Assembly: GCA_005805375.1 (NCBI GenBank)
Contig: SYMT01000543.1
Coordinates: 1-32,747, forward strand
DNA from: Actinomycetota bacterium
GTDB taxonomy: Bacteria > Armatimonadota > SYMT01
Direction of reading: 5' to 3'
Length of the DNA: 32,747 bases
A model generated the notes under the pieces. That model saw only the letters and a list, made by a program, of their open reading frames with translations. It was not told the origin of the DNA and ran no database searches. This document shows positions 2,899 through 27,546 of this stretch, piece by piece (the first letter of the stretch is position 1; each line of letters starts with the position of its first letter). The position numbers were made by a program, and so were the translations under genes.

Positions 2899-4887
2899 CT
2901 ACTCAGCGGAGGCGTGCAGTCGGATGTCGAGGCGCACCACGGCGTAGGGGAGCAGGGAGAGCACGATGTCCTCCGGCCCCGGAGGGATGGCGGCCGGCTC
3001 TCGCGCCCGGAAGGCGACGGGATCGCGCATCGCCTCCATCGTCGTGGTTACATCCAGGCTGCGCATCACTCCGCGCGCTCCATTCACGCCGGCCACGGTG
3101 ACAGTCAGCGGGCTGCCCAGCAGGTTGGCCACCAGAATGCGCAGGCAATTGTCGCGCCGCAGGGCAAGGGCAGCCGCGCGGAGCGGCTCGGTGCTGGTGG
3201 TCCGGAGCACCTCGGCGCCGGGCCATTCCCCGACGTCGGCCAGCACGTGGTACAGCGGGAACACCTCCCCCGGTCCGGATTGGAACCGGTCCGGGTGCGG
3301 GCAACCGTGCTCTCGCTCCATCACTCCGCGCCAGCCTGTGGTCTCGTAGTATGTGACCGCCGACACGCCGGCAACGGCCAGCGCCGCAAGGCTGCCGACT
3401 GTCCACGCGGCGGCGGCGAGTGACATCTGACGCTCGTCCACCTCAAACGGCAATGTGTCGCCCGGCCGAGGCACAGCGGGAGCGGCCAGGTGCGGATTGA
3501 ATCGCGGCCGCAGGGTCACCGGACCCACAGCAAGCGGCAAATCTCCGCAGATTTGCCGGGCACTCTCCACCACAGCCGTCTGGCCCGCCAGGTTCTCCAT
3601 CAGGGTCCGCGTGTCGCACGAGTGTGCCTGCGGGTTGATGGAGTACGTGACGACGTGCAGTTCCCCCGACGGCGGCCGCCCCCGGTTCAGTTCGGCGAAG
3701 TAAGCCCGGGCGCCGCCGCCGAGCGGAATGGGCCGACCCATCCCCGCGAGCCAGTTCCGCATCCGCTGCGCCGTGGCGGCGGACGTGGAGTTCTCCCCCT
3801 CCGCAAACGCGAAGCAGACCTGGATCGGAACCGGCAGAGCGCGCGCTGCGGTCAGGAGCGCCGACAGGGCCCCATCCTGGCCGGTTCCCTCGCGTGGCAG
3901 GGTGAGGCAAAGCTGCACCTCTGCGCCGAGCGCCGCGGCTTCCCGGCCTGCCTGCGCCAATCGGGCCGGTGCGGACGGATCCACCGCCTCAAGTTCGACC
4001 CGCAGGTGATCCGGCCGCAGCACCTGGAGACGCTCGATCTCCGTTTCGGACAGCGGCCCGCCGTGGCTCGCGATCCCGAGGCCGATCCGGGGCAGCACGC
4101 CCGCGGGCTCGCCGATCCGAATCCACGCGTCGGTTTCGCCGCGAGTGGGACGCGCTGAAACCGGTTCGTCCTCTGAAGTCGGGCCGGGGCACAACTCCAC
4201 CGTCACAGCCTGGGCCACCCGCTCCCCTGCTTCGACCCGGACCGGAAACGGCAGGCGCAGCGGAGTGCAATAGGTCTTGAACGAGGCGTCCGTCCAGTTC
4301 CGGTGGTCCTCCATCTCGAAGACATCGCCCTCAAACCGCACCTGCATCCACATTCCGTTTCGCACGGGATGCGAGACGGCACGGATGTCGAAGAACGGCT
4401 GATGCGGCGAGATGAAGCGGGGGAACTCCCCCTCGGTCACCGATCCATCCGTATGCTCGACGCGGCAGGCCCGGCCCACACAGCCTTCCAGGGGGTGCAG
4501 CACACAAAAGCCGATCCGATTTCGGAGGAACGACGCGAGCGCCTCGCCACTCATCGTAAATCGGAAACGACCGTCCGCGTCACCGGTAATCTCCGCGTCC
4601 CACGCAAAGGCAATGTCACCGTCGCGATGCTGCGCGCGGTACGTGACGCGAAAGTGATCGGCGCCCGCGATCACCTGCACATCGGTAAGCGCCGCCGCCG
4701 CGGTGTCCCAATTCCGATCGCGCACCGCCACATAGACCCGCCGCAGGAGTTCGCGCCCATCCAGCGACACGCAGCGCAGGTCCCCCTCGTCGAAGAGCAC
4801 GGTGAGCGGGCCGGCCCGAAGGGGAACAGGGTCCGGTCGAACTTCCGGCGTCCCGGTATGCAGCGTAATCGGCTGGCGCAACAGCAT
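2899..4887 (-). CDS. D-apionate lactonase-like protein (N-terminal beta domain plus TIM-barrel-like region); ORF extends to 4944, likely start at Met 4887
   Basis: Sequence pattern 'LRAGPLTVLFDEGDLRCVSLDGRELLRRVYVAVRDRNWDT', 'FEGDVFEMEDHRNWTDASFKTYCTPLRLPFP' resembles ApnL-type D-apionate lactonases; function inferred from recalled family pattern only. Confidence 0.65.
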   Translation of the reverse strand: MLLRQPITLHTGTPEVRPDPVPLRAGPLTVLFDEGDLRCVSLDGRELLRRVYVAVRDRNWDTAAAALTDVQVIAGADHFRVTYRAQHRDGDIAFAWDAEITGDADGRFRFTMSGEALASFLRNRIGFCVLHPLEGCVGRACRVEHTDGSVTEGEFPRFISPHQPFFDIRAVSHPVRNGMWMQVRFEGDVFEMEDHRNWTDASFKTYCTPLRLPFPVRVEAGERVAQAVTVELCPGPTSEDEPVSARPTRGETDAWIRIGEPAGVLPRIGLGIASHGGPLSETEIERLQVLRPDHLRVELEAVDPSAPARLAQAGREAAALGAEVQLCLTLPREGTGQDGALSALLTAARALPVPIQVCFAFAEGENSTSAATAQRMRNWLAGMGRPIPLGGGARAYFAELNRGRPPSGELHVVTYSINPQAHSCDTRTLMENLAGQTAVVESARQICGDLPLAVGPVTLRPRFNPHLAAPAVPRPGDTLPFEVDERQMSLAAAAWTVGSLAALAVAGVSAVTYYETTGWRGVMEREHGCPHPDRFQSGPGEVFPLYHVLADVGEWPGAEVLRTTSTEPLRAAALALRRDNCLRILVANLLGSPLTVTVAGVNGARGVMRSLDVTTTMEAMRDPVAFRAREPAAIPPGPEDIVLSLLPYAVVRLDIRLHASAE

Positions 4888-11521: not shown

Positions 11522-12880
11522 TTACGCGAGGGCTCCAGCCAGCGCCTCCTGCATCTCCAACGCAGATTGGAAGCGCTTGTCCGGATCCAGTTGCAGCGCC
11601 TGATGGATCACCCGCGCGAGCCCCGCGGCCGTTTGTGGTCGCCAACGAAACACGGGTACGAGATTCCCCTCCAGTACATCACTCACCTCCAGGTGCCCGC
11701 CGGCAACCTCGGCGGGCACGGCGCCGGTCAGCAGCCAGTACAGGGTCGCACCCAGGCCGTAGATGTCCGACCGGCGATCCGCACTCTGAGGATCGGCGAT
11801 GACCTCGGGGGCCAGGAAACCCCAGGTATAGCGGGCCGCGTGCGCGGGCACCGTCTTCAGATTCCGTACCTCGCCGAAGAAACGGCTCTGCCCGAAGTCC
11901 GTCACGAGCACGTCCAGGTTCGGCACATTCCGTATCAAGAGGTTCGATGGTCGAAGATTGCAATGGATTACCCTGCGGCTGTGAGCGTACTGGAGTGCCT
12001 CACACACCTGCACGCCCACCCTCACGACCTCCGCATCGCTGAACAGGTGCCCGCTCATCCGCAGGCCTTCGGCACTCGGTCCATCCACGTACTCCATCAC
12101 GATGCAGAAGTAGTCCCGGGTCGGCGTTCCCCCCAGAAACTGGACGATACGGGGATGGTCCAGCAGGTGCAGCGGAAGAATCCGGCGGAAGACAAGATCG
12201 CCGTACTGGTCACTCGGCATTCCCCGGGCGAGCCCGGATACATACCACACTTTCACGAGACACAGGCCTCCCGTCTGATCCCGGGTCGCCTTCCACACAT
12301 CCACGCCGGTATCGCGGTGGGTCACCAGGCATTCGAGGAATTGGTAACCGGGAATGTCCGGAATTCTCCCCGCGATTTCTTCGGTGTCATGCTGATGCAC
12401 GAGCGCGACGGCCGCCAGCGACGGGTCGTCAAACTGTGCGTGCGAGATTGCGCTCGGAGCCGGGTCGGCTGACTTCGGGAACGGGAGTTCGGAAACAGGC
12501 TGACGGGGCAGCAACTGTGTGAGTGTGATCGGCGCCACAGCCTCGACCGGGGCGACGGCGGGCTCCCCGGCGAGTGAGGGAGCCCACACTTCGAGTTCCG
12601 TGGTCTCACCGATCTGAATGCGATCAAGGTGGGACAGGAGGGAGCCGCGGGTTTGCTCACCGTTGACGAGCGTGCCGTACCGGCTCCCGACATCCAAAAG
12701 ATAGAGACCGATCGGGCGAAGTTCCACCAGGAAGTGACAGCGCGACACACACGGATCATCTCCCACCTGGAGGTGACAGAAAGCCCCACGTCCCACCAGG
12801 AGCTGCTCTCCCGGGGTGAGCTGTGCGCTCGTTCCCTCGCCGGGCCCCTGCCGGATGGTGAGCGTGATCTCCGTCGTCAT
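11522..12880 (-). CDS. FHA domain plus Ser/Thr protein kinase-like domain, predicted pseudokinase; start corrected to ATG 12880
   Basis: FHA: 'LLVGRGAFCHLQVGDDPCVSRCHFLVEL...DVGSRYGTLVNGE'. Kinase-fold: 'CLVKVWYV', 'IVMEYVDG', 'VIHCNLRPSNLLI', 'VTDFGQS', 'WGFLAPEV', 'SDIYGLGATLYWLLTG'; catalytic HRD is HCN and the Gly-rich loop is degenerate. Confidence 0.88.
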   Translation of the reverse strand: MTTEITLTIRQGPGEGTSAQLTPGEQLLVGRGAFCHLQVGDDPCVSRCHFLVELRPIGLYLLDVGSRYGTLVNGEQTRGSLLSHLDRIQIGETTELEVWAPSLAGEPAVAPVEAVAPITLTQLLPRQPVSELPFPKSADPAPSAISHAQFDDPSLAAVALVHQHDTEEIAGRIPDIPGYQFLECLVTHRDTGVDVWKATRDQTGGLCLVKVWYVSGLARGMPSDQYGDLVFRRILPLHLLDHPRIVQFLGGTPTRDYFCIVMEYVDGPSAEGLRMSGHLFSDAEVVRVGVQVCEALQYAHSRRVIHCNLRPSNLLIRNVPNLDVLVTDFGQSRFFGEVRNLKTVPAHAARYTWGFLAPEVIADPQSADRRSDIYGLGATLYWLLTGAVPAEVAGGHLEVSDVLEGNLVPVFRWRPQTAAGLARVIHQALQLDPDKRFQSALEMQEALAGALA

Positions 12881-12899
12881 AACAACGCGCCTCCGCCGG

Positions 12900-13817
12900 T
12901 CAGGAGGCTGGGCGCCCGTCGTCCTTGGACGGACGCGGCCGGGGAATCGGGCCGGTCTCCCGGGACTGCCAGTTGGGAGGTAGATCCCACTTCTGTGTGA
13001 ATTCGGGGCCGCCCTGGTCCGGAGACAACGGCGCATGGCTGATCAGACCAACCTGGACCAGCGTACGCGGCCCCAGCCGGATCATGCACGGGAAGGTAAG
13101 CTCCTCCTGGTCCCCGCGCCGGAGTTCGCGCGTACCGACGTACGATGCAGGCAGATCCTGCTCCCCGCCCACCTGCACAAAAACGCGCCGCCGTCCCGCA
13201 CGCACGATCTCGGCGTGCCGGCGCAGCACCGTCAGATCGCTGTCGAGGGACACGTGCTGATGCACGGAGAGGCCCCGCCCGATGGTCACCCGCGGTCCTC
13301 GCAGGTCAAACTGCTTGCCCTGGCTCGGTCCGTTGTGGACCAGGAGCCACCCCCAGGGCCGGCGTACACGGTAGATCACATACCCGGTCAGGCCCACGGC
13401 TCCGAGGCCGACGAGCAGCAGGACGACCCCCTGAGTCCAGCCGATCGGCTTGAGCAGGTAGTCCATCCGGCGACTATTGACGAGGAGTTTCCCGTCCGAT
13501 GTGCGCGAAACGGCGCCGGTAACCACTACCTGCCGGCCCATCATCGGGAAGTCCTGATCGGTTTGGACCCAGACCTCGGCGCCATAGTCGTCGCGCAGGG
13601 TGAATACCTTGCGGCCCGCTTGTTCCTCCGCCCGGATCCGTACGCCGGTCCGTCCCTGAACGGTTACTTCGGAGCCCACCCGCGCCGGGAGTTGGTCCAC
13701 CAGAATCGGGGTCTCCCGTCCTCCGCACCCGGCCAATCCGACGCATACCAGGAGCATGACGATCCAACGCAACAGCGCCGGCCCGACCCTCCAGGCTACT
13801 GTGCGTTCACGATGCAT
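12900..13817 (-). CDS. Membrane lipoprotein-like protein: OB-fold-like region, TM helix, C-terminal FHA domain
   Basis: 'WIVMLLVCVGLAGCGG' lipobox, 'VVLLLVGLGAVGLTGYVIYRV' TM, 'LVHNGPSQGKQFDLRGPRVTIGRGLSVHQHVSLDSDLTVLRRHAEI' FHA. Confidence 0.8.
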   Translation of the reverse strand: MHRERTVAWRVGPALLRWIVMLLVCVGLAGCGGRETPILVDQLPARVGSEVTVQGRTGVRIRAEEQAGRKVFTLRDDYGAEVWVQTDQDFPMMGRQVVVTGAVSRTSDGKLLVNSRRMDYLLKPIGWTQGVVLLLVGLGAVGLTGYVIYRVRRPWGWLLVHNGPSQGKQFDLRGPRVTIGRGLSVHQHVSLDSDLTVLRRHAEIVRAGRRRVFVQVGGEQDLPASYVGTRELRRGDQEELTFPCMIRLGPRTLVQVGLISHAPLSPDQGGPEFTQKWDLPPNWQSRETGPIPRPRPSKDDGRPAS

Positions 13818-19260: not shown

Positions 19261-22200
19261 TTACCTTGAGTTGACCCTGAACTGCCGCACATTCCCCGTG
19301 GGGGTCCGGTCGTTCACATCGGTGACGCCGGAGACCACCACTTCGTATCGGCGGTTTCTCCGGTAGCGCGCCGGGGAAAGCCGCAGCGGTTGCCGCAGCT
19401 TGAACAGCACCCCCCGCTGCACTTCAGCCGGGTTATCCGCGTCCCGTTCGCGGAACTCGAACGCGCTGCGGCCGAACTGGTCCGTCACCTGCCGCGTGAC
19501 GGCGTCCCGGACGGTCACTGAAAGCGAAGCGACGTTGAGACGGATCCCGCCGAGTTGACTGACGCGGAACTCAACCGGCAGCAGCCCGTTCACGTTGTAC
19601 GGACGGTCGGCAAACGGCAGGGTGAACCGCACAACCGGCGGATCGGGCGCCTGGAAACTCGTGATGTCGGACGTGCCGGCACCGGTGTTGCCCAGCGCAT
19701 CGAGCACCTCAACCCGGATGCGGATCGGACCATTCCTCGCAATTTCGGGCGACACATTGAGGGTGCCCGCCGTAAACGTGATCTCCCCCCCGCCGAGTAT
19801 TCGTGCCGCCCCGGCGTCCGGGAAGGTGAATACATCGCCGGTGATGTCGGTCGCACCCTGGGTGATCAACACCCGATAGAATCGCAGGCCTGATCCCCCG
19901 AAATCGTCCGTGCGGACCCGCAGTTCCAGGTCGCGACCGGGCGGCACGGTGGCGCCGGTCTCCGGCTGAACAATCGTGACCGCCGGAGCAGTGTTGTCCA
20001 CAAGCGCCGACACCGCGGTCGTCGAGGTGTTTCCCAGGTTATCCGTAGCTCGAACCGCAAACGTGTGACGCCCGTCCGTGATGACCCGGGTGTCCAGCGC
20101 AATGCGCACCGCCTGATCGGCACCCGCAGTCAGGAGCGAAGACGACACATGCGTCGTGCCATCCACGAGCAACTCCAGGCGGATGGGTGCGCTTTGCAGC
20201 TCGGTGACCCGCAACTGCACCGGAAATGCGGCGCCCTCGAAGTTGTTGATGAACTGGTCCGGCGTGGGCGACAGGATTGTCACGGCCGGGGCCACGCTAT
20301 CAATCGTGATGCCGCGCGTGAGATTGCTGCCGTTCGGGACCCGGAGGTGGTCCGGGCCGCCCGATGTCAGGTCGTTGGGATCAGAAGTCACCGCGTCGTC
20401 GTTGGCTTCGATCCGGATGGTGTGCGGACCCTGGCTTTCGTCCGCTGGAGTGGCGGGATTGTCCGCGAAGGTGCGGGTCACGCTGATCGCATCCACGCCC
20501 TTCGTTCCGCCGGTTGCGACCTGCACTCCGTCCACCAGCAGCCGCCAGGCGATCCCGTTCGCCTCCGTCAGATCCGCCCGAATCGGCACCTGCGTTCCCG
20601 GCGTCGCCGGATCGGCATCTCCGATGAAGCCCGTGGGAGGCGTCTTGAGGTTGATGATCGGCGCGGCGTTGTCCACCACGAAGGTGCGGGTTACCTGCCC
20701 GATCCGGTCGCTGTCGTCTACGGCCCGGAGCGTGAGCGCGTGCAGGCCGTCAGTGAGCCGCGTGGTGTCCAGATCGAACGGGTCAATGTCCTGCACCGTA
20801 CCGGACACGTCCCTGCTGACAATCTGATTCGCGGCTGCCAGCCCGTCCAGGTAAAGCTCGTAGCGTCTGAGCTGCCGCGCGTCGCGCACGACCCCCTTCA
20901 CCAACAATCGCCCGCGTCGCACCTGCCCGTCATTGATCGCCGGATTCAGCGGGTCGCGGTCCGGAACGGTGATTTCCGCCGTCGGACTTCCGCCGTCGAG
21001 CACGAACGGGCGCGTAGCGACGGCACTGTTCGGCGCCAGACTCGCCCGGTCCATCGCCATCACCACCAGCGTATGCGGTCCCTCGTTCAACAGCGGGAGA
21101 GTCAGGTTTACCGTGGCCGAGTTCCCCGGCACAAGCGCAGGAAGGGCGAGCGGCAACCCATCCAGAGTCGCCCGGACGGTCGTGACATCCAGATTGGCGT
21201 CCGTGACCAGGAAACTCGCGGCGACCGGATTGTTCACAAACCCGGCTGCGGACGGAGAAGTGATCGTGATCGCCGGCGCCGTGTTGTCGGTCACGAAGGC
21301 GGTCGAGACGGTTCCGGTGCGGCCCGCCTCGTCAGTCGCCCGCAGCACCAGCGTGTGCGGCCCGTCAGTCAGCGCAAAGGTATTCAGATTGGCGGCCACG
21401 GGAGCGGCCGTGCCGCTGACGTCCATCTGCGCGATCACATTACCGGGAAGCGTCCCATCCAGGAAGAGCTCCCAGCGACGCAGGCGGAGGCTGTCGGTAA
21501 CGCTGCCGCTCACCGCCACCACGCCGCTCCGCACCGCCGCCGCCGTGGGGGTCGTCAGCACCGCAACCGGGTCCTCGTTGTCTACAGTGAACGTCCGGGT
21601 GGACGCGCTCCGATTGCCGGCGCGGTCAAACGCGACCACGGTGAGCGTGTGAGAGCCCTGTGACACGTTGTTGAAGTTCGCCGTGAGGGTGTGCGTATTC
21701 GCCACGGATGCAATCGCCGGATTTACGGCGGCGCCGGCATCCAACTGGAACGTGGTGCGGCCCGCGTTCGTGTCGAGATTCGCGTCCACGACGGTCACAT
21801 TGGCTGCCAGCGGGGAGGTCGCGGTCGCTCCTGCCGCCGGTTGGTTGATCGTAATCGCCGGCGGAGTAGTGTCTACGACGAAGTTCAGCGTGGATTGGGT
21901 GACGTTCCCTGCGTTGTCCAGCACGGTGGATCGGAGCGCGAAGGGGCCATCGGCAGGGGTGACGCCCGTGGAGCGGAACTGCCCCAGGGCATCTATCGGC
22001 GTCTGCACCGTGTCCAGCGCGGTGTTCCCCTGCAGGAGTTCCACCATTGCAGATGCGGCCACCCCGGATCCTGTGAGGACGGGATTCACCACACCGGCGG
22101 CATCTTTGTGCCCCGGATCGAACGCGACGCCCCCAAACGAGAAATTACGGGCGGCGATGAATAGCGCCCCTCCAACATTTGCACTGGCAGCCACGCCCGT

Positions 22201-23172
22201 CCCGGTGATGCTGGGCGCCTGCGGGTCGAAAAACACGGCGCGCTGGTATTCCGCGGAGGCCACGCCGGCACGGTTTCTGACCTGTGTACTGAATACAAGC
22301 GGACCCCCCGCGGCGGATGGATGTCCAGTGAGATCCGCAACGTACGGCAAATCGAAAGTCAGGACACCATTGGGGGCAATGGTGAAGTTCCCGTTCGGCG
22401 TGGTGACGGCGCCCACCGCGTTTGGCGCAGGTCGCACGCTCTGGCCGGATCTGGCGCCGGTCAACGGATCCACCATTGCGATGGAAACGCTGTCCATTTG
22501 CTCGAAGAAGCTGCCGTTCTCCGTGATGGGCCGGGCAACACCCTGCATCCGTAACGCCGGAGTGTTCACAAAGGTGTATTGCGCCGCCGGAACCCCGAGT
22601 CCATCCGAAAACGGCGTGGGGCCGCCGGTGCTGGTGTCAAAACGACCGATTTCGAACGAAGCAACCGGCCGCTGATTCGCCGCGCCCAGGGCGGGAGAAC
22701 GGTCCTGGCGGAGCTGCACCACCTCGCTGTCTCCCGGCTCGCTGCCGCCATCCGAAAAAAGCGCTCGGGTGGAAATGGTCGCAGTCCGCACGACTCCGTT
22801 GCTCGTTGCCCCCTGCAGCGTCAAGAATGCCTGGAACGCCCCCCCGTTGGGTGGAACCGAAGCCGTGGTGACCTGCGCCCCATCCACAAAGATGAGCACT
22901 CCGGTGAGAGTCTTGTTCCCCACAACCGTGGCAATGCCGCGCACGCGGAGCACGCCGGGGAGCACCGCCCCGGCGCCGTCCGCGGTGTCCACGTCCACGT
23001 CGAAGGACGATACAAGCCCCCCGGTGGGCCGATGGTCCACCTCCGGACTAACCAGCAAGCTGCCGTCGCCGGGCGCGGCAGGGAGTGAACGGAAACTCGT
23101 GATCGCAGCCAGCGCGAACAGACCGAGCAGCCCCCCCCACGGAAGTGTGCGTCGCGTGACACCTCGAAGCAT
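19261..23172 (-). CDS. Giant secreted protein with multiple Ig-like repeats (surface/adhesin-like)
   Basis: 1303 aa; repeated units such as 'VDNTAPAITITSPSAAGFVNNPVAASFLVTDANLD', 'LTDGPHTLVLRATDEAGRTGTVSTAFVTDNTAP', 'LTDGLHALTLRAVDDSDRIGQVTRTFVVDNAAP'. Confidence 0.88.
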   Translation of the reverse strand: MLRGVTRRTLPWGGLLGLFALAAITSFRSLPAAPGDGSLLVSPEVDHRPTGGLVSSFDVDVDTADGAGAVLPGVLRVRGIATVVGNKTLTGVLIFVDGAQVTTASVPPNGGAFQAFLTLQGATSNGVVRTATISTRALFSDGGSEPGDSEVVQLRQDRSPALGAANQRPVASFEIGRFDTSTGGPTPFSDGLGVPAAQYTFVNTPALRMQGVARPITENGSFFEQMDSVSIAMVDPLTGARSGQSVRPAPNAVGAVTTPNGNFTIAPNGVLTFDLPYVADLTGHPSAAGGPLVFSTQVRNRAGVASAEYQRAVFFDPQAPSITGTGVAASANVGGALFIAARNFSFGGVAFDPGHKDAAGVVNPVLTGSGVAASAMVELLQGNTALDTVQTPIDALGQFRSTGVTPADGPFALRSTVLDNAGNVTQSTLNFVVDTTPPAITINQPAAGATATSPLAANVTVVDANLDTNAGRTTFQLDAGAAVNPAIASVANTHTLTANFNNVSQGSHTLTVVAFDRAGNRSASTRTFTVDNEDPVAVLTTPTAAAVRSGVVAVSGSVTDSLRLRRWELFLDGTLPGNVIAQMDVSGTAAPVAANLNTFALTDGPHTLVLRATDEAGRTGTVSTAFVTDNTAPAITITSPSAAGFVNNPVAASFLVTDANLDVTTVRATLDGLPLALPALVPGNSATVNLTLPLLNEGPHTLVVMAMDRASLAPNSAVATRPFVLDGGSPTAEITVPDRDPLNPAINDGQVRRGRLLVKGVVRDARQLRRYELYLDGLAAANQIVSRDVSGTVQDIDPFDLDTTRLTDGLHALTLRAVDDSDRIGQVTRTFVVDNAAPIINLKTPPTGFIGDADPATPGTQVPIRADLTEANGIAWRLLVDGVQVATGGTKGVDAISVTRTFADNPATPADESQGPHTIRIEANDDAVTSDPNDLTSGGPDHLRVPNGSNLTRGITIDSVAPAVTILSPTPDQFINNFEGAAFPVQLRVTELQSAPIRLELLVDGTTHVSSSLLTAGADQAVRIALDTRVITDGRHTFAVRATDNLGNTSTTAVSALVDNTAPAVTIVQPETGATVPPGRDLELRVRTDDFGGSGLRFYRVLITQGATDITGDVFTFPDAGAARILGGGEITFTAGTLNVSPEIARNGPIRIRVEVLDALGNTGAGTSDITSFQAPDPPVVRFTLPFADRPYNVNGLLPVEFRVSQLGGIRLNVASLSVTVRDAVTRQVTDQFGRSAFEFRERDADNPAEVQRGVLFKLRQPLRLSPARYRRNRRYEVVVSGVTDVNDRTPTGNVRQFRVNSR

Positions 23173-23271
23173 GCCGAAGCACTCCCTAACTACGCGCCTC
23201 TTCTCCGAATTGGAAGAAGGTGAGATTGCCGGATATTTGGAGAGGCGAAGCGCGTGACACCAGTGAGATGC

Positions 23272-23541: not shown

Positions 23542-26112
23542 ATGCTTCAAAAAGGCCATGACCTCGGCCCTTATGTAATGGACGAACAGTTAGGCCGGGG
23601 AGCATATGGTATCGTCTGGAAGGCCCACCGGAAGCAGGGCTTGCAGGTACCGGTGGCGATCAAGATTCCGCTGGACGGCGAAGATAGTTCCACCGCCTAT
23701 CAGGCCGAAGCGGATACCTGGCTCCGTGTCACCGGACACCCAAACATCGTACCGGTGTTGGAGGCAGTCCAGTACGGCGAGTTCTTTGTCCTCATCAGCG
23801 AGTTTGTGCAGGGCGGCTCGCTCCGCACCCGTCTACGGGAGGTAACGGGAGGGCGGGTCGCCGCTGAGGAAGCCGTCAAGATTGCGGTCGGCATCGCGCA
23901 GGGCCTGGTGCATCTTCACTCCGCCCGGGTGGTGCATCGGGATCTGAAACCCGAGAATGTGCTGCTCCAGGCCGGAGTCCCGCGCCTCGCAGACTTCGGG
24001 ATTGCGCGCGTTGGAGGCGCCAGCCAGACCGGGCAGGTGGCGGGAACAATCGCCTATATGTCTCCGGAAACATTTCAGGGCAAGGTCTCGACCCAGGCGG
24101 ACCTGTGGGCGGCCGGGATCATCCTCTATGAGATGCTCACGGGGAAGGTGCCGTTCTACTCATCCAACGCGTATGAAGCCATGGATCAAATCCGGCAGGG
24201 TACGATTCCGGCACTGCCGGCTGACATCCCACAGTCGGTGGTCCAGGTAGTGCATCGCGCCCTGGAGCGGGACATCCGCCTGCGGTACGGGAACGCCGGC
24301 GAAATGGTGGAAGATCTGGAGGAAGCGCTTGCAGATCTGCAGACCCGGCCGGTGCGAGGGGCGGACGCACGCGTGTCTCTCACTCTCACCCGCGACCAGG
24401 CAGCCAGGGGGGGCTCATTTCTGCTCGCGGCGCAGGGTCGCCAGATTCCCGTGACGGTGCCGGCGGCGGCGCAGGACGGGACGGTACTCACCCTGGAAGG
24501 AAGGGGCCGCACCGGCCGGGCGGGCGGCCTTCCCGGCAACCTTCTGGTCGAGGTGCAAATCTCCGACGTGCCCCCACCCCCCGAGGACTTGCGGACACAG
24601 GTCCGTATTTCGCCCGACCAGGCACGGATGGGGGGTAGCCTGCGCATTGACGTAGAAGGGAGCTGGGTTACGCTCAACTTGCGACCCGGGACGCACGATG
24701 GGGAGGAAATCGTCGTACCGGGAGCCGGAAGAGCGGCACGACGCGACGGCGTGCCGGGCGACCTGCGGGTGCAGGTCCAGGTGACGGATGCCCCCATTCG
24801 GGGTGACGACGTGTCCGAACGCGCGGTGATCCCCCACGCACTGGCCCGCACCGGAGGAACGCACCCGCTGAACGTCCGAGGACGTACGGTGGAGGCCATG
24901 ATCCCGGCCGGAACCCGCACGGGTGATGTGGTCCGGGTTGCCCGGCTCGGGCAGCCCGGACGGTTCGGCGGTCCGCCCGGCGATCTCCAGCGTGAGATCG
25001 AGGTAGCCGCCGCCGACGGCCCCGCCCCATCCGCGTCGGACCTCTTCTGTGAGCTGAGTCTGACCGAGGCCCAGGCTCGGGCAGGAGGCGAATTTACGGT
25101 CTGGGCCGGCCGCCGCGAATTCACGGTCGCGGTCCCGAGAGGAGTGCAGGATCAGCAGGTGATCCGACTTCCCGGGCGCGGGGAACCGGGGGCGCGCGGC
25201 GGGGAGCCGGGCACGTTAGTGGTGACCGTGAATGTGCAGCAGGCGCCCGCACCAGGCGCCGACTGTTTCGAAACACTCTTCGTGACGCGGGCGCAGGCCC
25301 GCGATGGCGGTACCGTGGGTCTCCCACTCCCGGGTGGCCTCGTACCGGTCCCCGTGCCGCGCGGCGCGCGCACGGGAGCTCAGGTCGTCCTCGAAGGAAA
25401 AGGGGGCGAAGGCGTCCGTGGGGGCCGCCGGGGAGACCTGATCGTCACCCTGAGTGTCGAGGGCGATGAGCGAGCGGCCGGGGTCACCTCGCCGTCCGCC
25501 GGCGCCGGCGGGCCGCCGTTCCTCGAATGGATCCGGTCGCGACCGCACATCGCCATCGGTAGCGGTGTCGCGCTCGTTGCGCTCGTCTCAATTCCATTCC
25601 TCGTTCCCCCCCGGCAAGGCGCAGCAGGCGCAGCAGGCGCCGGCGCAGGCACAGGGGGCGCGACTCCGTGCGCCATCACCAGCACTTCCCTTCCCCAGGC
25701 CAGGATCGGGCAGCCCTATTCGGCACAGGTGACTGCCGACTGCACTCCCTCGAACTGGCAAATCCAGGGACTTCCCGAAGGACTTCAGGCCGACGCCTCG
25801 GGGAAGATCAGCGGTACGCCGAAACGCTCGGGCAAGTCCAGCGTAACCCTCGAAGCAACGGGGCCGGGAAACAAGCCGGTGCCCGGGGTCGGGGTGAGTC
25901 TGGTAGTCGAGACATCGGACGAAGCCCGCAAGGTCCTGATTGAGATCAGCGATCTGTACCGCCGAGTGAAAGCCAATAGTAAGGAAAGTGCATCGTCACG
26001 CCAGCTTGACGAAGCCGTGAAGCTGGCGGAACGTGCGGAGGCGCTGGAACCTCGGTGCCTCAAGCTGGATCCTGGTTTGCAGGATGAGATCAGCGCCGCA
26101 CGCCCGAAGTAG
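23542..26112 (+). CDS. Ser/Thr protein kinase fused to five tandem DnaJ C-terminal-domain-like modules, TM helix and C-terminal putative-Ig (He_PIG-like) domain; start corrected to ATG 23542
   Basis: Kinase: 'LGRGAYGIVWKA', 'VAIKIPL', 'VVHRDLKPENVLL', 'ADFGIARVG', 'GTIAYMSPE'. Five repeats of pattern '(D)QARxGGxxxxxxxGRxxxVxVPxGxxDGxxxxLxGxGxxGRxGGxPGDLxVxVxV'. TM 'HIAIGSGVALVALVSIPFLV'; 'LPQARIGQPYSAQVTADCTPSNWQIQGLPEGLQADASGKISGTPKRSG'. Confidence 0.9.
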   Translation: MLQKGHDLGPYVMDEQLGRGAYGIVWKAHRKQGLQVPVAIKIPLDGEDSSTAYQAEADTWLRVTGHPNIVPVLEAVQYGEFFVLISEFVQGGSLRTRLREVTGGRVAAEEAVKIAVGIAQGLVHLHSARVVHRDLKPENVLLQAGVPRLADFGIARVGGASQTGQVAGTIAYMSPETFQGKVSTQADLWAAGIILYEMLTGKVPFYSSNAYEAMDQIRQGTIPALPADIPQSVVQVVHRALERDIRLRYGNAGEMVEDLEEALADLQTRPVRGADARVSLTLTRDQAARGGSFLLAAQGRQIPVTVPAAAQDGTVLTLEGRGRTGRAGGLPGNLLVEVQISDVPPPPEDLRTQVRISPDQARMGGSLRIDVEGSWVTLNLRPGTHDGEEIVVPGAGRAARRDGVPGDLRVQVQVTDAPIRGDDVSERAVIPHALARTGGTHPLNVRGRTVEAMIPAGTRTGDVVRVARLGQPGRFGGPPGDLQREIEVAAADGPAPSASDLFCELSLTEAQARAGGEFTVWAGRREFTVAVPRGVQDQQVIRLPGRGEPGARGGEPGTLVVTVNVQQAPAPGADCFETLFVTRAQARDGGTVGLPLPGGLVPVPVPRGARTGAQVVLEGKGGEGVRGGRRGDLIVTLSVEGDERAAGVTSPSAGAGGPPFLEWIRSRPHIAIGSGVALVALVSIPFLVPPRQGAAGAAGAGAGTGGATPCAITSTSLPQARIGQPYSAQVTADCTPSNWQIQGLPEGLQADASGKISGTPKRSGKSSVTLEATGPGNKPVPGVGVSLVVETSDEARKVLIEISDLYRRVKANSKESASSRQLDEAVKLAERAEALEPRCLKLDPGLQDEISAARPK
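24367..25475 (+). other. Array of five DnaJ-CTD-like protein modules inside the kinase gene
   Basis: Tandem protein repeats of about 73 aa each ending in GRGxxGxxGGxPGDLxVxVxV, the signature of DnaJ substrate-binding domains ('VPAGVxxGxxLRLxGxGxxGxxGGxxGDLYVxVxV'). Confidence 0.8.
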
Positions 26113-26148: not shown

Positions 26149-27546
26149 ATGGCAAAACAATCGGTTCTCGGGGTCCCATCCGGAACACAACGTCCGAGGT
26201 TCGTCGCCGTCTGGATGAGCGCGGCCCTCGGAGGAGTGATGCTCCTCCAGCTACCCGGCGCCAGCCAGGAAGGGAAGTCGCCGAGTCAGATCCTCCGGGA
26301 GCGACGTGCGAGTCAAAGGCTCCGGGAGCGAGCAGAGGCGGCCCGTAAAGCGGAACAGGCGAAAAAGACGGTGGTACGGACGCCCCGGCCGTCGCAACCC
26401 CGTCCCAACCCGGCTGTTTCGGCACAGCGTCTCGCAGAGCAGCGCGCCGCCGCCAACCGACGAGCGCGGGAGCGCAGACAGCAGGCCCAGGAGCGGCAGG
26501 CGAGACTGGCCAGAGCCAATCCGGGAGCAGTTGTAGTATCTCGGGACCTGGATTGGCGGTCGGCACAGGCCGGCGGCGCTATCCGGGTGGACGTCGGAGG
26601 CAAGCAGTACGGAGTTACATTGCCTGCGGGAGCGTTGGATGAGCTGAAGGTGACCGCGCCGAACCTGATTCCGGCCGCCGCCGGCGGACAGAAACGAGAT
26701 CTGCTCGTGACCTTGAACGTCACGGCGGGCAAAGGCGACCAGTGGAGAAATCCGGTGGATGACGCAGGCCTGCGCTTCGTTCCCGAGGGCCTCGCGCCGG
26801 TGGGGCCGGACAACAACCTGCTTGACTCGCTCGGCGCCGTGCTGAAGGATTGGCCGTCAAGCTGGCTGGAGCAACTGCGCCGGGACATCACCGCGGGGTC
26901 AGCAGCCCCGGCGCGCGACGCGGGTGGGTACTGGATGTACGAGACTGAAGTCACTGTCGCCCAGTTCGAGCGATACTGCAAAGCCGCCAATCAGACACTC
27001 CCCCCGCAGCCGGGAACCGCGGACACCAGCGCGCCGGTCGTAAATGTACCGTTCGTCGCAGCAAAGCAGTACTGTGTGTGGCTCCAGGAGCGCCTTGAAA
27101 AGGAGCACCAGATCCAATGTGAAGTGGTGTTGCCCGCGATCGCGGACTGGCAGTACGCAGCCCTGGGGGGTGCGGCCGGCGGGCTCTTCGTGTGGGGCAA
27201 CGGCCTCCCCGGAGGCAAAGCGGGCAATCTGCCCGATCAGAAAGCCGGCGAGATGCACCCGGATTGGGAAGTGATCGAGAGCTATTCCGACGGATACGCC
27301 GGTCTGGCGCCGGTTCGTACTTCGTCCGAGAACGGGTTTTCGCTCTTCGACCTCGCCGGGAATGCGGCCGAATGGTGCGTGGACCGCGCGGCGAAACCGG
27401 CGACCCGCGGAGGGTCCTGGCGGAACCAGCCCCTCGCCGACTTCCTCATTTTCGCGCCGCCGGCCCCCGACGACGGTGAGGCACGGGATGATGTCGGATT
27501 TCGACCCATTGTTCGAAATCTGCGGGCCGCGGCGGAGAAGAAATAG
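26149..27546 (+). CDS. SUMF1/FGE-sulfatase-fold protein with N-terminal signal anchor, coiled coil and one DnaJ-CTD-like module
   Basis: 'GGYWMYETEVTVAQFERYC', 'YCVWLQERL', 'CEVVLPAIADWQYAALGG', 'NGFSLFDLAGNAAEWCVD', 'TRGGSWRN', 'DDVGFRPI'; module 'RDLDWRSAQAGGAIRVDVGGKQYGVTLPAGALDELKVTAPNLIPAAAGGQKRDLLVTLNV'. Confidence 0.88.
   Translation: MAKQSVLGVPSGTQRPRFVAVWMSAALGGVMLLQLPGASQEGKSPSQILRERRASQRLRERAEAARKAEQAKKTVVRTPRPSQPRPNPAVSAQRLAEQRAAANRRARERRQQAQERQARLARANPGAVVVSRDLDWRSAQAGGAIRVDVGGKQYGVTLPAGALDELKVTAPNLIPAAAGGQKRDLLVTLNVTAGKGDQWRNPVDDAGLRFVPEGLAPVGPDNNLLDSLGAVLKDWPSSWLEQLRRDITAGSAAPARDAGGYWMYETEVTVAQFERYCKAANQTLPPQPGTADTSAPVVNVPFVAAKQYCVWLQERLEKEHQIQCEVVLPAIADWQYAALGGAAGGLFVWGNGLPGGKAGNLPDQKAGEMHPDWEVIESYSDGYAGLAPVRTSSENGFSLFDLAGNAAEWCVDRAAKPATRGGSWRNQPLADFLIFAPPAPDDGEARDDVGFRPIVRNLRAAAEKK

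Follow-up and report, generated by a model that had tools for sequence, protein, structure and literature searches.

A bacterial Ser/Thr kinase with five DnaJ C-terminal modules and no J domain, and a possible role of the modules in peptide docking

The window, by which we mean the whole stretch of 32,747 nucleotides that was analyzed, encodes an 856-aa Ser/Thr kinase in which the kinase domain is followed by five modules with the fold of DnaJ C-terminal domains (CTDs), without a J domain. The modules are related to CTD1 of Hsp40 proteins, and the protein belongs to a family that is expanded in this genome and whose C-terminal domains are interchangeable. We tentatively propose that the Hsp40-derived, CTD1-type modules are peptide-docking units placed between the kinase and an exchangeable sensor, a reading that we consider a serious possibility, if somewhat short of probable. 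Within this proposal, we infer that the modules bind peptides and cluster their targets, and which ligands they bind. The features of the locus are as follows.

23542..26112, plus strand: whole gene, 856 aa; kinase, five CTD modules, transmembrane (TM) helix, He_PIG domain, helical tail
23572..24291, plus strand: Ser/Thr kinase domain, catalytic motifs all present (Pfam PF00069, 1.9e-47)
24361..24573, plus strand: CTD module 1 (79 bits with the module profile, 37 bits with the DnaJ-only profile)
24583..24795, plus strand: CTD module 2 (79 and 30 bits, respectively)
24805..25014, plus strand: CTD module 3 (71 and 40 bits)
25039..25248, plus strand: CTD module 4 (91 and 50 bits)
25258..25467, plus strand: CTD module 5 (70 and 36 bits)
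25549..25605, plus strand: TM helix (Kyte-Doolittle 2.42 over 19 residues; helix in the AlphaFold model)
25675..25866, plus strand: putative Ig domain He_PIG (Pfam, 23.8 bits, just under the cut-off of 24)
26149..27546, plus strand: downstream gene; N-terminal signal/TM segment, Arg/Ala/Gln-rich stretch, one CTD-like module, FGE-sulfatase domain
26548..26727, plus strand: sixth, weaker CTD-like module, inside the downstream gene (33 bits, i-E 2.5e-9)

The gene coordinates given in an initial annotation of this DNA (23542-26112) proved correct. The reading frame could open earlier, at 23254; the ATG at 23542 is favored because the resulting N terminus, MLQKGHDLGPY, fits the MLxxGDxxGPY starts of the paralogs. 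The complete canonical kinase described there was likewise confirmed: the Pkinase match covers aa 11-250, and fold and catalytic residues (K41, E56, D134 of the HRD motif and D151 of the DFG motif) place the protein among the Hanks-type Ser/Thr kinases. Across the aligned kinase family, K41, D134 and D151 are invariant and the catalytic set as a whole is invariant or near-invariant. Matches of the gene to the defence systems PD-T4-6 and mad6 in a defence library search reflect generic kinase similarity and were rejected.

The initial annotation had also recognized five DnaJ-CTD modules after the kinase and no J domain, and both observations hold. Pfam DnaJ_C (PF01556) matched the window protein with 4.8e-50 and 170 bits (cut-off 26.6), in three stretches that jointly span all five modules, each about 70 aa long. 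A profile made exclusively from eight true DnaJ CTDs recovered exactly five domains (aa 275-341, 348-415, 430-489, 500-566 and 581-640; 30-50 bits), while the top score among 2000 shuffled versions of the array was 7.2 bits. AlphaFold prediction of the array, based on 16 aligned sequences, returned five equal strand-helix-strand modules (mean pLDDT 83, pTM 0.36), which appeared again in the full-length model. In a Foldseek search against the PDB, the top 30 or so rows consisted exclusively of Hsp40-type CTD structures. By profile score as well as by fold, the modules are thus members of PF01556. A J domain (PF00226) was not matched in the window protein by Pfam even at E = 1, so that the J domain with its HPD motif that defines Hsp40 co-chaperones is absent. 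An origin of the array by artefact or chance is ruled out by the shuffles, the DnaJ-only profile, paralogs on other contigs and a fusion in a sister genus.

Single modules superposed on Hsp40-type CTDs at 2.1-3.1 Å over 69-76 columns, whereas two-module stretches fitted the DnaJ tandem poorly (about 12 Å); the tandem geometry is therefore unlike that of DnaJ, or undefined. A tree of 38 modules and CTDs (72 columns, poorly resolved apart from this one clade) placed the four DnaJ CTD2s in a clade of their own with support of 100/99 and not a single module inside. The module profile, applied to a J protein that lacks the zinc finger, scored its CTD1 with 73.5 bits and its CTD2 with 41.3 bits. Because no module falls into the CTD2 clade and the profile prefers CTD1, the array is read, on sequence grounds, as five CTD1-like units in tandem. 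Match positions within Pfam are ambiguous in this respect, with the modules split between first-half and second-half PF01556 matches. A DnaJ-style CTD1-CTD2 pairing within the array is ruled out by the module-free CTD2 clade, and the window protein also lacks the CTD1-then-CTD2 order of Hsp40 proteins. Pairwise identity among the five modules is 27-42% and they do not cluster in the tree, which leaves a recent tandem duplication unsupported. The sole recent module pair in the family is found in paralog C9 (67% identical).

CTD1 of Hsp40 proteins holds the peptide site and binds clients. At the pocket positions, which we take to be the equivalents of Ydj1 I116, L135, L137, L216 and F249, strongly hydrophobic residues occupy 20/25 sites in the window protein vs 6/25 at neighboring control positions, a pattern that is partly expected for strand positions of the CTD fold alone. 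The same positions are strongly hydrophobic in 65/88 cases in the paralogs and 34/40 in DnaJ. The L216 equivalent is hydrophobic in all five window modules and in just 5 of 18 paralog modules, being mostly polar there, so the canonical pocket is not kept family-wide.

The initial annotation had placed a TM helix and a putative Ig domain after the array. One clear TM helix is present (aa 670-688); the He_PIG match is only borderline, and a helical tail follows it. The downstream gene starts 36 bases past the kinase stop, behind a GGAGG ribosome site, and encodes a protein with a hydrophobic N terminus and an FGE-sulfatase domain (3.5e-19). To judge from its sequence, this module-bearing protein is probably exported, and we regard it as a candidate partner of the window kinase.

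The genome contains 28 kinase matches, 26 of them over the cut-off. Modules are carried by 12 of these kinases, 22 modules in total and one to five per protein.

Several modules: C509 (the window kinase), five; C504 and C216, three each; C9 and C386, two each
One module each: C190, C570, C631, C343, C52, C56, C521
FGE-sulfatase domain after the modules: C216, C190, C343, C52, C56, C521
TM helix and DUF1559 after the modules: C631
Several TM helices after the modules: C386
Nothing after the module (kinase and one module only): C570

The juxtamembrane position of the array, part of the initial reading, applies to the window protein. It is not general, since several paralogs are soluble: no TM helix follows the module in C570, C9, C190, C343, C521 and C56. 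The last of these (L011:920-3172, minus strand) combines kinase, J domain with HPD, one CTD module and FGE domain, and amounts to a near-complete Hsp40 within a kinase. Only one other kinase of the genome has a J domain, judged by the HPD motif, namely C113 (L139), in which a short, HPD-containing J-like stretch behind the kinase ends at a stop; it looks truncated.

Across the phylum (n = 291 genomes), the number of DnaJ_C matches per genome is one to three almost throughout, the exceptions being two genomes with none and two with four; this genome has 18-19. We searched 20 genomes of the phylum with a profile comprising the kinase C-lobe and the first module, and full-length matches above 190 bits were restricted to this genome and one sister-genus case. 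In the sister genus, kinase C269 has one module, a TM helix and DUF1559, and in kinase L146 an FGE-like start comes straight after the kinase domain, with no module between them. Surveys of other phyla scored the best nine or so candidates per genome. Under this scheme, 3 of 399 Chloroflexota genomes gave full-length fusion matches (about 93 bits), and the genome of Ktedonobacter robiniae gave one of 76.7 bits. Chloroflexota fusions occur in at least four Ktedonobacter-type genomes, each with one module after the kinase, and the four proteins tested were all above the Pfam DnaJ_C cut-off. Among the best candidates per genome, kinase-module matches were found in 0 of 377 Myxococcota genomes, the single match in 393 Planctomycetota genomes was without a module, and matches in 386 Acidobacteriota genomes reached only the kinase part. 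In a scan of named genomes, ordinary kinases dominated and the 80 loci among the matches listed included no convincing module (best 14.9 bits, in a 141-aa ORF). The combination of kinase and DnaJ_C is thus not unique to the window protein, being present in the 12 paralogs, one sister-genus kinase and the one-module Chloroflexota forms. Plasmid-borne spread was rejected, as a plasmid search yielded six weak matches, the annotated ones DnaJ-type.

The module was also seen in other company. A 795-aa protein (L110:1106-3490, minus strand; genome G065) has an Hsp70-like domain, one CTD module, a TM-like hydrophobic segment and a probable coiled coil, and a protein without a kinase (L022:1489-2775, plus strand; genome G016) joins a CTD module, a TM-like segment and a DUF1559 (pilin-like) domain.

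On the kinase tree, the window clade comprises 15-16 kinases of this genus and the sister genus, 10-11 of them with modules. C52 and C56 have kinases from other subfamilies, outside this clade. The C56/C113 pair has the Chloroflexota kinases as its sister group (100/85); these represent a different kinase subfamily in which the same domain order occurs. Module presence requires eight changes on this tree, at least five of them forced by well-supported branches. A single origin of the kinase-module fusion is therefore unsupported, and the history of the module includes several events of gain, loss or shuffling.

Some of the FGE domains are linked to diversity-generating retroelements. The kinase-CTD-FGE protein of C216 is a retroelement target: the end of its FGE domain is a variable region with 17 mismatches to a template repeat that lies about 280 bases further downstream (L010:4634-4741 and L010:5020-5127), 16 of them at template adenines (p = 6e-12). 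A reverse transcriptase is encoded at C319 (L127) with its own template/variable pair, where 18/19 mismatches are at adenines (p = 2e-12). The FGE regions of C56, C521 and C52 have this skeleton in common, and most of the columns that vary among them coincide with those adenines (19/24 columns, p = 8e-12); they probably carry variable regions of the retroelement type, although a template repeat for them was not found in the genome, which is 80% complete. In C52 (L018, around 3500-3700), the frame breaks within the FGE domain and the part with the variable region resumes in another frame. Scans of the window with two template repeats detected no variable region, and the window protein is not a target.

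According to the docking proposal, the window protein would be a Hanks kinase of the receptor type, one of a family that has expanded in this lineage, and the CTD1-type modules right behind the kinase domain would serve as docking units. Each module could bind a short extended peptide by strand addition beside a hydrophobic pocket, as CTD1 of Hsp40 does. The docked segment might belong to a substrate of the kinase, to the FGE protein encoded downstream or to the tail of another receptor, and five modules would confer avidity and cluster the targets near the membrane-bound kinase. Signals would be taken in by the domain past the TM helix, in other members by an FGE, pilin-like or multi-TM domain instead. 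We favor docking because modules stand behind the kinase irrespective of the C-terminal domain, because C570 consists of kinase and module only and because the units are CTD1-like. The five CTD folds, the pocket positions, the shared domain order in Chloroflexota and the modules that adjoin an Hsp70-like domain or, without a kinase, DUF1559 also speak for it; the polar L216 equivalent of most paralogs, the partly fold-driven hydrophobicity and the low pTM speak against it. Among the functions suggested in the initial annotation, a multivalent docking scaffold fits best, given modules that appear CTD1-like and a pocket that is largely kept.

Since the inter-module geometry is undefined, the modules may instead be passive: rigid beta spacers or oligomerization units without ligands, forming a stalk between kinase and membrane. 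The range of one to five modules, the old and diverged window modules and a geometry unlike the CTD1-CTD2 tandem, if defined at all, would suit such a role, but soluble C570, with a single module and nothing more, needs no spacer, and a spacer would need the fold alone, whereas the glycine-rich GGxxGD signature and the pocket positions are kept. We consider this rather unlikely. The initial annotation had also suggested that the kinase senses unfolded polypeptides, that is, a stress receptor switched on by misfolded clients on its modules. Client binding is the textbook function of Hsp40 CTD1, the window protein keeps the hydrophobicity of the pocket, and C56 joins kinase, J domain, CTD and FGE in one chain. 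Several observations speak against it: modules accompany many unrelated C-terminal or sensor domains, C570 has only a kinase and one module, the L216 equivalent is polar in most paralogs, clients could not be handed over to Hsp70 without a J domain, and the downstream gene has its module in a probably exported protein. Such sensing therefore seems improbable to us.

The retroelement-type variable regions in the FGE domains of C216 and probably C56, C521 and C52, together with the J domain retained in C56, raise the question of whether the modules fold or stabilize a variable, e.g., hypermutated, sensor in the same chain. Many module-bearing kinases, including that of the window, have no FGE domain, however, and the sister-genus kinase L146 reaches its FGE-like start without a module, which makes a built-in chaperone very doubtful. 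A wider extension of the docking proposal, unlikely in our judgment, is a receptor network built on Hsp40 parts, in which about half of the Ser/Thr kinases of the genome would use CTD1 modules as peptide readers and some sensors would be hypermutated by a retroelement. Recognition at the sensor end would then change quickly, and docking to the output machinery would stay fixed.

The substrate specificity of bacterial kinases is loose, and it has long been asked how they find their targets. Docking by the CTD1 modules is a prediction directly testable on isolated modules; if it holds, a chaperone client-binding domain would have been reused in signaling without its Hsp70 partner. Such reuse is unusual and apparently undescribed. 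Taken with the retroelement-diversified FGE domains, the 12 kinases with 22 modules, compared with about two DnaJ_C proteins per genome elsewhere in the phylum, suggest that this uncultured lineage has a fast-evolving family of receptors.

With the CTDs of DnaJ/Hsp40 proteins (PF01556), specifically CTD1 of the zinc-finger-less DnaJ2/CbpA type, the modules share fold, signature, pocket positions and a match far above the cut-off; unlike those J proteins, the window protein has a CTD1-like tandem fused to a kinase and lacks J domain, zinc finger and CTD2. Bacterial receptor Hanks kinases such as PknB/PrkC, with PASTA repeats, also combine a cytoplasmic kinase, one TM helix, an outer domain and a repeated accessory module (PMC6213207). 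In the window protein, however, the repeats are DnaJ CTDs and lie on the same side of the membrane as the kinase, Pfam gave no PASTA match, and the PknB-PASTA equivalog score of 175 bits (cut-off 450) excludes membership. Among known proteins, the human DNAJ-PKAc fusion of fibrolamellar carcinoma comes closest; it likewise joins an Hsp40 part to a kinase and has a scaffold function, but contains the J domain and recruits Hsp70, whereas the window protein contains CTDs and no J domain (PMC6533061). A survey of prokaryotic kinase architectures by Krupa and Srinivasan in 2005 reports HSP70 and DUF323/FGE fusions without mention of DnaJ (PMC1262709), and work on cyanobacteria describes kinases with retroelement-diversified CLec domains, DnaJ again being unmentioned (PMC7517822); the paralogs described here share FGE and retroelement features with these proteins. 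We found no description of a kinase-DnaJ_C protein in the open-access literature, in keeping with the initial annotation, which knew of no characterized kinase of this architecture; one-module forms do exist in Chloroflexota.

Two other genes of the window, both on the minus strand, were also noted. The product of the gene at 11522-13036 has an FHA-like part at its N terminus and a kinase-like domain in which HCN replaces HRD; it is likely a pseudokinase. The gene at 19261-23172, divergent from the kinase gene, encodes a protein of 1303 aa that contains several bacterial Ig-like domains (Big_13, Big_7).
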